A stretch of 42,709 bases of DNA from the IMG/VR virus record IMGVR_UViG_3300036900_000162, positions 1 through 42,709 of that record, one strand, 5' to 3'. A program made the position numbers and the translations under genes. Below are positions 35,162 through 41,145 of the stretch, piece after piece (position 1 is the first letter of the stretch; each line of letters starts with the position of its first letter). Source of the stretch: a virus. The notes under the pieces were generated by a model, which saw nothing but the letters and a program-made list of their open reading frames with translations, did not search any database and had not been told where the DNA came from.

Positions 35162-36142
35162 ATGGCTCGGCCGCGCACGACAAACGCATATCTACCAAAA
35201 TACGTCACCGTTATCCACGGGGCGTATTGGTATAGACCACCGGACGCGAAATCCGTTCGTATCGCCGCGGAAGGCGACCTGGCCGGATTGTACAAGTTCA
35301 TGGCGAAGCTGACGGCCCCCGAAGGGCCGATCACTCGCATGTCCGAAGTCTTCGACCGCTATATCCGCGAAGTCGTGCCCACCCTCGCAGAGCGTACGCA
35401 AAAGGATTACCTGCGGCATCTGTCGATCCTGCGGGCTTGGTGCGGTCACATGCATCCGGATGAACTCGAACCCAAAGACATTGGCAAGTTCCTGGATGTC
35501 GAGAAGGGCAAGATCCAGCGCAATCGCCAAGTTGCCGTTCTATCAGCGGTGTACGCCAAAGCCGTGGGCCGCTGGTACGTCGCTCAGAAGAACCCCTGTC
35601 GGGACGTAGAGCGCAATCCCACGCATCGCCGCACGCGTTATGTGACGGACGAGGAATATCTGGCGGTCTACACGCTTGCTTCCGAACGAACGCGGCTCAT
35701 GATGGATCTGGCGCTGATTACTGGCCAGCGGCAAGGCGATCTCATCGCACTCAAGTGGGAAGCCGTCACGGATTCAGGTATTCGACTCCAGCAGGGCAAG
35801 ACCGGCAAGAAGCTCATCATCACGAAGTCTGAAGTGCTGGAAGCCGTCCTGGAGCGTGCGAAGGCCCTGAAGCCCGATCTGCCGCGAGAGTACGTCGTGC
35901 GCACCCGCAAGGGGCGCCCGTACACCTCTGAGGGATTCCGGGCGGTCTGGCAGCGCACCATGAATCAGGCGCTGCGCAAGAAGGTCATTCAGGAACGCTT
36001 CACATTCCATGATCTGCGGGCCAAGTCGGTGAGCGATTCCGAGACGCTCGAGCAGGCATTCGAGCGGGCCGGTCATACCTCAATGAGCATGACTCGTGGG
36101 GTATATGACCGCAATTTCCGCAAGGTGACTCCTCTCAAATAG
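35162..36142 (+). CDS. int: Tyrosine-recombinase integrase
   Basis: The product has 326 residues: an N-terminal arm-binding region, a core-binding SAM-like domain (about 60-145), and a catalytic domain with Arg190 (TGQRQGD), a probable Lys213-217 in the QGKTGKK hairpin, His283-x-x-Arg286 (FHDLR), His305 (AGHTS) and nucleophile Tyr315 (GVYDR). It catalyses attP-attB recombination at a tRNA-Lys gene. It is transcribed with the rightward operon and ends just before attP; the stop is TAG. Confidence 0.95.
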   Translation: MARPRTTNAYLPKYVTVIHGAYWYRPPDAKSVRIAAEGDLAGLYKFMAKLTAPEGPITRMSEVFDRYIREVVPTLAERTQKDYLRHLSILRAWCGHMHPDELEPKDIGKFLDVEKGKIQRNRQVAVLSAVYAKAVGRWYVAQKNPCRDVERNPTHRRTRYVTDEEYLAVYTLASERTRLMMDLALITGQRQGDLIALKWEAVTDSGIRLQQGKTGKKLIITKSEVLEAVLERAKALKPDLPREYVVRTRKGRPYTSEGFRAVWQRTMNQALRKKVIQERFTFHDLRAKSVSDSETLEQAFERAGHTSMSMTRGVYDRNFRKVTPLK

Positions 36143-39773: not shown

Positions 39774-39892
39774 AGTTCCTGCGCGAATACTGGGAAGCCA
39801 CGGCTGGCGTCTGGATAGTCATCCTAGCCGCGCCATTCGTCTTTGCGGCCTTGTCTTGGTGCGCACGTCACCATTGGTTCGATCTGAGGTGA
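39770..39892 (+). CDS. 40-residue membrane peptide before the methyltransferase
   Basis: A GTG start at 39770 has GGAG about 11 bases upstream and overlaps the previous stop. The peptide (KFLREYWEATAGVWIVILAAPFVFAAL...) has one membrane segment. Its TGA shares a base with the methyltransferase ATG (TGATG). Function is unknown. Confidence 0.55.
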   Translation: MKFLREYWEATAGVWIVILAAPFVFAALSWCARHHWFDLR

Positions 39893-40626
39893 TGCGTGTC
39901 CTCGACCTCTTTTCGGGCATCGGCGGATTCAGCCTCGGACTTGAGCGAGCTGGGATGCGTACCGTTGCCTTCTGCGAGAGCGAGCCGTACTGCCAGCAGG
40001 TCCTTCGATCCCACTGGCCAGATGTCCCTTGCCATGGAGACGTCAGAACGCTCTCCGGAGCTCCAGGAGACGCAGACCTCATTTGCGGAGGCTTCCCATG
40101 CCAAGACATCAGCCATGCTGGTACTGGCGCTGGAATTGAGGGAGAGCGATCCGGCCTGTGGGCTCAGTTCGCGCGCCTCATTGGCGAGATTCGACCCCGC
40201 TACGTCCTCGTGGAGAACGTCGCAGCGCTCCTTGACCGAGGAATGGGAGTCGTACTCGGAGACCTTTCCCGAATCGGGTATGACGCGGAGTGGTCAGTTG
40301 TATCAGCGTGCTCCGTGGGCGCTCCACATGTGCGACGACGGGTGTTCATTGTGGCCTACCCCGACAGCATCCATGGACGGCCGCGGGTTTGGGATACCGC
40401 TCCACGAGAATACCGGACGCTACAAGCTCTCGACGGTCCGCAGGGTCCACGGGCTCGTTGGCGAGCACGGCTGGCGGATCCATCCGCACTTTACGGAGGC
40501 GCTGATGGGATTCCCTACGGATCAGAGCGCAATCACGCGATCGGCAACGCCGTCGTGCCAGACATCATCGAACGAATCGGACGCGCCATAGTGCGCGCGG
40601 ATAGTGCGGACTGTCGCGAGGCTTAG
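39892..40626 (+). CDS. DNA cytosine-5 methyltransferase (Dcm-like, orphan)
   Basis: The product has 244 residues. Motif I is LDLFSGIGGFSLGL (4-17); motif IV GGFPCQDIS with catalytic Cys70; motif VI ENV (108-110); motif VIII around RRRVFIVAYP (148-157); and motif X GNAVVP (219-224). The target-recognition region between VIII and X is only about 55 residues, so specificity is probably short. No restriction enzyme is encoded nearby; it likely protects phage DNA or alters host transcription. The same DNA encodes a second conserved frame (next entry). The ATG at 39892 shares one base with the previous stop. Confidence 0.92.
   Translation: MRVLDLFSGIGGFSLGLERAGMRTVAFCESEPYCQQVLRSHWPDVPCHGDVRTLSGAPGDADLICGGFPCQDISHAGTGAGIEGERSGLWAQFARLIGEIRPRYVLVENVAALLDRGMGVVLGDLSRIGYDAEWSVVSACSVGAPHVRRRVFIVAYPDSIHGRPRVWDTAPREYRTLQALDGPQGPRARWRARLADPSALYGGADGIPYGSERNHAIGNAVVPDIIERIGRAIVRADSADCREA
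39896..40591 (+). CDS. Overprinted +1-frame gene within the methyltransferase (SPAKTS / WPTP family)
   Basis: The frame encodes up to 231 residues (GTG 39896); an ATG at 40022 gives a 189-residue form that matches where I expect the family to begin. It contains, in order, SFAEASHAKTSAM, ARFDPATSSWRTSQRSL, SETFPESGMTRSGQLYQ, CSLWPTPTASMDGRG and TEALMGFP. From memory these are the hallmarks of a common phage protein family with (S/A)SPA(K/R)TS, SWRTSQ, SGMTRSG, GLWPTP and LMGFP motifs. The AKTS block is the +1 reading of motif IV (PCQDIS) and LWPTP that of IVAYP in motif VIII. No clear ribosome binding site is visible. It could also be a non-expressed mirror kept open by methyltransferase codon bias. 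Confidence 0.55.
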   Translation: MSSTSFRASADSASDLSELGCVPLPSARASRTASRSFDPTGQMSLAMETSERSPELQETQTSFAEASHAKTSAMLVLALELRESDPACGLSSRASLARFDPATSSWRTSQRSLTEEWESYSETFPESGMTRSGQLYQRAPWALHMCDDGCSLWPTPTASMDGRGFGIPLHENTGRYKLSTVRRVHGLVGEHGWRIHPHFTEALMGFPTDQSAITRSATPSCQTSSNESDAP

Positions 40627-41099: not shown

Positions 41100-41145
41100 G
41101 CGTCGGACCCTGGAGCGGTTACAGGTTCGAGTCCTGTATCTCCCC
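41100..41145 (+). other. tRNA-like T-arm remnant
   Basis: ACAGG-TTCGAGT-CCTGT (41121-41137) is a perfect T-arm with the invariant loop, followed by ATCTCCC like an acceptor strand. The preceding bases AGCGTCGGAC...GGAGCGGTT resemble the anticodon-arm side of a tRNA, but no anticodon stem or 5' acceptor strand can be paired. It is probably a tRNA fragment or decayed phage tRNA. It occupies most of the 81-base gap between two genes. Confidence 0.45.

Follow-up and report, generated by a model that had tools for sequence, protein, structure and literature searches.

A viral DNA stretch of 42,709 bases (an IMG/VR virus record, here called the window) very probably carries a two-polypeptide cytosine-5 (m5C) DNA methyltransferase (MTase) whose two chains are read in different frames of the same locus. 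The predicted alpha subunit, in frame 0, would contribute the cofactor-binding and catalytic motifs I-VIII together with motif X, and the predicted beta subunit, in the +1 frame, would contribute the target-recognition domain (TRD) and motif IX, with a segment designated EXT in front of them. EXT probably helps beta to dock on alpha, beta is probably initiated 4 nt after alpha from a shared ribosome-binding site, and the two chains are expected to assemble into one enzyme which would methylate the phage DNA, most likely against host restriction.

Arrangement of the locus and its two frames

The window carries a portal protein, an integrase and a RusA-like resolvase. The alpha ORF (39892..40626, + strand) matches PF00145 (1.2e-46), TIGR00675 (8.7e-38) and phrog_363 (4e-79), and motifs I, IV (PCQ), VI (ENV), VIII (RxR) and X (GN..VP) were identified in it. 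An earlier note on this DNA had credited the MTase frame with the full m5C motif set; this proved incorrect, as the conserved TRD and motif IX are absent from the alpha chain, unlike in single-chain enzymes. The match of alpha to HhaI is confined to residues 1-160, and the linker between motifs VIII and X is unconserved in the alpha frame, with many arginine, glycine, alanine and charged residues and few hydrophobic ones. At motif X (IGNAVVP; 40540..40560, +) the alpha frame is constrained once more; alpha contains this motif in the window, as it does in 172 of 192 complete relatives.

The beta ORF lies inside alpha in the +1 frame (39896..40591, +) and would encode 231 amino acids from a putative GTG start. 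A profile match to phrog_1008 (9.9e-23), a family labelled 'DNA methyltransferase', was obtained for beta, and no Pfam or NCBIfam family was matched. The strings HAKTS, SWRTSQ, SGMTRSG, LWPTP and LMGFP, singled out in the earlier note, are all present in this protein. The EXT segment (approximately residues 93-140, FDPATSSWRTSQ...FPESGMTRSG; 40172..40315, +) lies over alpha motifs V-VIII as an apparent overprint; it is followed by the TRD segment, which begins with the residues LWPTP (40349..40480, +) and over which the alpha frame drifts, and by motif IX (HPHFTEALMGFP; 40481..40516, +).

The starts of the two ORFs are staggered (39886..39898, +). A GAGG sequence (39886-39889) is followed by the stop codon of the upstream ORF (TGA, 39890-39892), by the alpha ATG at 39892, which overlaps that stop (TGATG), and by the beta GTG at 39896, 4 nt after the alpha ATG; the spacer from GAGG is 2 nt to the former start and 6 nt to the latter. 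Family-wide, +1 start codons 4 nt after the alpha start were found in excess (ATG, 71 versus 32 expected; GTG, 14 versus 4). A +1 start codon occupied this position in 44 of 96 alpha ORFs with a nearby ATG, and a Shine-Dalgarno-like sequence preceded 31 of the 44. The GTG of the window is probably used as the beta start. Later candidate starts were seen in other lineages, and the lineages seem not to share one beta start.

Coding status of the +1 frame and distribution of constraint

Relatives were collected from viral contigs and from the genomes of bacteria and archaea by searching with the +1 protein, the MTase or a +1 alignment, and register was scored with two profiles (the N-terminal half of the MTase and the +1 protein). 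The overlap that the earlier note had read in the window recurs widely: beta overlapped the MTase in the +1 register in 261 of 269 loci, the others being frameshifted or truncated, showing no overlap as delimited by the profiles or having no +1 protein, and no clear stand-alone beta gene was found among the 269. One candidate 'beta only' locus (L101) was rejected as it lies at a contig end, and a candidate 'same ORF' fusion (L257) was rejected as a frameshifted locus rather than a clean fusion. A plasmid search returned four distant matches and nothing closer.

For the window taken alone, the length over which the +1 frame is open (696 nt versus a mean of 406 nt under synonymous codon permutation, p = 0.04) is only mildly unusual and constitutes weak evidence. 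Across MTase codons 61-160 of 178 non-redundant loci, 5 stops were observed in the +1 frame against approximately 367 expected; because other loci had been picked by +1 similarity, the unbiased test is that on the 18 loci found by the MTase alone, where no stop was observed against 35.6 expected from codon usage. Along the gene, +1 stops in the 178 loci were not avoided in codons 1-10, were approximately halved in codons 11-60 and were almost absent from codon 61 onwards. No overall stop deficit was detected in the +2 frame of these 178 loci. Four distant phage m5C MTases, serving as controls, had 5-18 +1 stops each, equal to expectation, and the +1 frame was also open over its full length in relatives with a G+C content of 45-54%.

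Selection on the two frames was compared in 73 independent pairs (75-97.7% identity), in which differences were classed as synonymous or nonsynonymous in each frame and divided by the available sites; the motif X variants counted for the regional rates included forms such as GNGQVP. The ratio of the beta-only to the alpha-only nonsynonymous rate, which is the safer figure because the doubly synonymous class is small, was 3.87 over alpha codons 1-60, 4.86 over codons 61-96 and 1.68 over codons 97-160, was 0.20 [0.16-0.23] in the TRD stretch and 0.36 [0.27-0.46] in the motif IX stretch, and was 3.39 [2.28-5.27] at motif X. The MTase frame thus dominates motifs I-VIII, the +1 frame dominates from VIII through IX, and the MTase frame dominates again at X. 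In the TRD stretch the alpha-nonsynonymous rate (0.465) equalled the doubly synonymous rate (0.469), and the alpha amino acids drift neutrally there. Within the close family of the window itself, identity over 58 ungapped codons was 76-91% for beta and 41-86% for alpha.

In the EXT segment, identity exceeded the codon-permutation null by z values of 31-61 per 8-residue block (alpha codons 97-136), and residues 1-92 of beta were weakly conserved above the same null. The EXT of the window scored 119.8 bits, and 100 permutations of the gene in the window gave 63.6 bits at most. Beta seems to be genuinely overprinted on motifs V-VIII at residues 93-140 or so.

On the strength of the stop deficit and of the constraint seen in relatives, the GTG-started +1 ORF is a real coding frame, as the earlier note had proposed. 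That +1 stops would not be frequent in relatives was borne out, and the excess of constraint looked for in this frame was present, both in EXT above the permutation null and in beta evolving more slowly than alpha in the TRD and motif IX. A frame left open merely by G+C content and conserved MTase motifs, and untranslated, is scarcely credible. The G+C content of 62% and the single-locus p value of the window would suit such a frame, as would ASHAK (from GFPCQ) and LMGFP (from VADGVP), which are partly forced by MTase codons, and beta-changing substitutions over alpha codons 1-96, which are as free as in an unconstrained frame; it is at odds, however, with the stop counts in the loci found by the MTase, with the open +1 frames at lower G+C, with the lack of an overall +2 deficit, with distant MTases in which the +1 frame is not open, with the better conservation of the TRD and motif IX in beta than in alpha, and with an EXT score far above the permutation maximum. 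It was rejected on codon permutation, stop counts and the hand-over between frames.

Nature and history of the beta protein

Single-chain MTases with motifs I-VIII, LPTP units, IX and X in one frame occur in Mycobacterium and Gordonia phages (pattern LPTP...EWMMGWPxGWVT (IX)...GNGVVPQQ (X)); examples are prophi104-2 gp17, ShiLan gp70 and Derg gp4. These chains match a profile of the beta TRD and motif IX (best domain E 3.6e-8; hhalign 97.7%). The hhalign match falls mostly on the LPTP units and leaves motif IX outside, so the assignment of motif IX rests on short-profile matches, on its place before X and on the single-chain examples; from its position, its pattern and the single chains, LMGFPxGW would be the counterpart of HhaI motif IX. 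In Dylan (gp7/gp6), Arturo (gp76/75) and Vash (32/33), the annotation of the same halves is a pair of overlapping methylase genes, of which the second lies in the +1 frame. These gene pairs and the single chains identify the C-terminal half of beta, at the level of sequence, as the TRD plus motif IX of the same enzyme. The predicted fold of a fused relative (L291) is M.HhaI-like end to end (pTM 0.72), residues 2-351 of the model aligning on HhaI 10-326 with a Z score of 22. AlphaFold prediction of beta alone (pLDDT 60.7, pTM 0.30) was too poor for a fold search, and no match was obtained for the beta profile against PDB sequences. Beta differed between the counted loci in its number of PTP-type units (0 to 7), a pattern resembling the gain and loss of target-recognition modules.

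EXT is not in-frame in the single-chain MTases; it persists in their +1 frame (57-82 bits versus permuted means of 16-31), where stops accumulate. These relics suggest that the overlapping state came first and that the fused chains are derived. We lean towards the view that a large and widespread clade of phage m5C MTases has its TRD half in the +1 frame, that this arrangement is ancestral to the single chains and that fusion undid the overlap. EXT was seen in the +1 frame of the single-chain loci L281, L282, L284 and L288-L306, several of which share stops at alpha codons 75, 109 and 113.

Beta is probably translated as a separate chain. The disappearance of +1 stops begins at alpha codon 61, well ahead of motif VIII; it favours an independent beta chain and argues against a frameshift at VIII as the sole route to the +1 product. 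A programmed shift from alpha into the +1 frame near VIII, giving one chain with I-VIII, TRD and IX beside the alpha chain, is considered unlikely: neither the frame being open from codon 61 nor the conservation of EXT beyond its null is needed by such a shift, and the shifted chain would be without motif X in the window, although in several actinophages the +1 continuation has motif X too, so that a single shift would give a complete enzyme, and fused single-chain relatives do exist. The earlier note had supposed the whole beta family to be born by overprinting and its product to be an accessory or anti-restriction protein. Of the first idea, the part concerning residues 93-140 or so over V-VIII stands, EXT being overprinted and not in-frame in single chains, and the extension to the whole family is not supported, given the homology of the C-terminal half to the single-chain TRD and IX. 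That homology also tells against a protein acting apart from the MTase, which is very improbable: the C-terminal half is in-frame in the single-chain MTases of actinophages, it replaces a region which drifts without constraint in alpha, and clear stand-alone copies are absent from the 269 loci.

Comparison with known methyltransferases and annotation

M.EcoHK31I and M.EaeI are two-polypeptide m5C MTases, and the small-chain gene of EcoHK31I lies within the large-chain gene in a different frame; the small chain of the window is likewise nested in another frame, the likeness being one of layout. One chain of M.EcoHK31I has motifs I-VIII and X and the other has IX, and M.AquI consists of two chains split after VIII, the small one having IX and X (PMC3404938). 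The window matches M.EcoHK31I in how its motifs are distributed: the large chain has I-VIII and X, the small one IX. It differs in that the TRD of M.EcoHK31I is predicted in the large chain, whereas the TRD segment of the window evolves as part of beta, and in that the genes of the window are those of a phage; the few neighbours scanned in the window included no recognisable restriction enzyme. M.AquI is similar in having two chains split after VIII, but its small chain holds both IX and X, whereas the X of the window remains with alpha; among the actinophage relatives, Vash and Dylan follow the AquI pattern. ShiLan gp70, prophi104-2 gp17 and Derg gp4 resemble the enzyme of the window in their related I-VIII half and in the type of their TRD/IX domain, and differ in using a single frame, EXT being left only in +1.

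The label of phrog_1008 makes no mention of a reading in another frame inside a DNA methyltransferase. No account of such an overlap in phages was found in open-licence papers, and an earlier description elsewhere is possible; PMC9957025 concerns a different methylase family. What appears to be new is how widely the arrangement extends over phages and bacterial genomes, together with the placement of the TRD in beta, the overprinted EXT, and fused relatives that retain +1 relics.

Many phage 'DNA methyltransferase' annotations probably cover half an enzyme, the overlapping layout being common and mostly annotated as a single gene; if so, recoding an annotated ORF, or placing it behind a foreign start, would give a protein without activity. 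As a natural data set on two conserved proteins that occupy one stretch of DNA, the family is unusually large; the selective load in it passes between frames, and split, rearranged and fused states are all available for comparison. Target specificity may evolve in beta while alpha tolerates the changes.

A second type of beta, with an LTWKxKxTPxxR-like segment and then LNPxHSRWLMGxPxEW, was observed in the +1 frame in Escherichia phage N15 gp58 (L368, 812-1807) and Klebsiella phage RAH2 (L369, 791-1852); that of N15 is open from roughly alpha codon 63, and a similar type is present in L086-L098. In Virus Rctr197k (L372, 1041-1721) the beta ORF of the +1 frame is deposited as Rctr197k_201, a 'conserved hypothetical protein', and the MTase frame is unannotated. 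In L097 (alpha 1983-2648), both frames are broken and swapped after motif VIII by an expanded GAGAGA run (RERERERE). No tRNA gene was found in the window with ARAGORN; a sequence at 41121-41140 (ACAGGTTCGAGTCCTGT) resembles a tRNA T-arm and may, together with the integrase at 35162-36142, be part of an attachment site.
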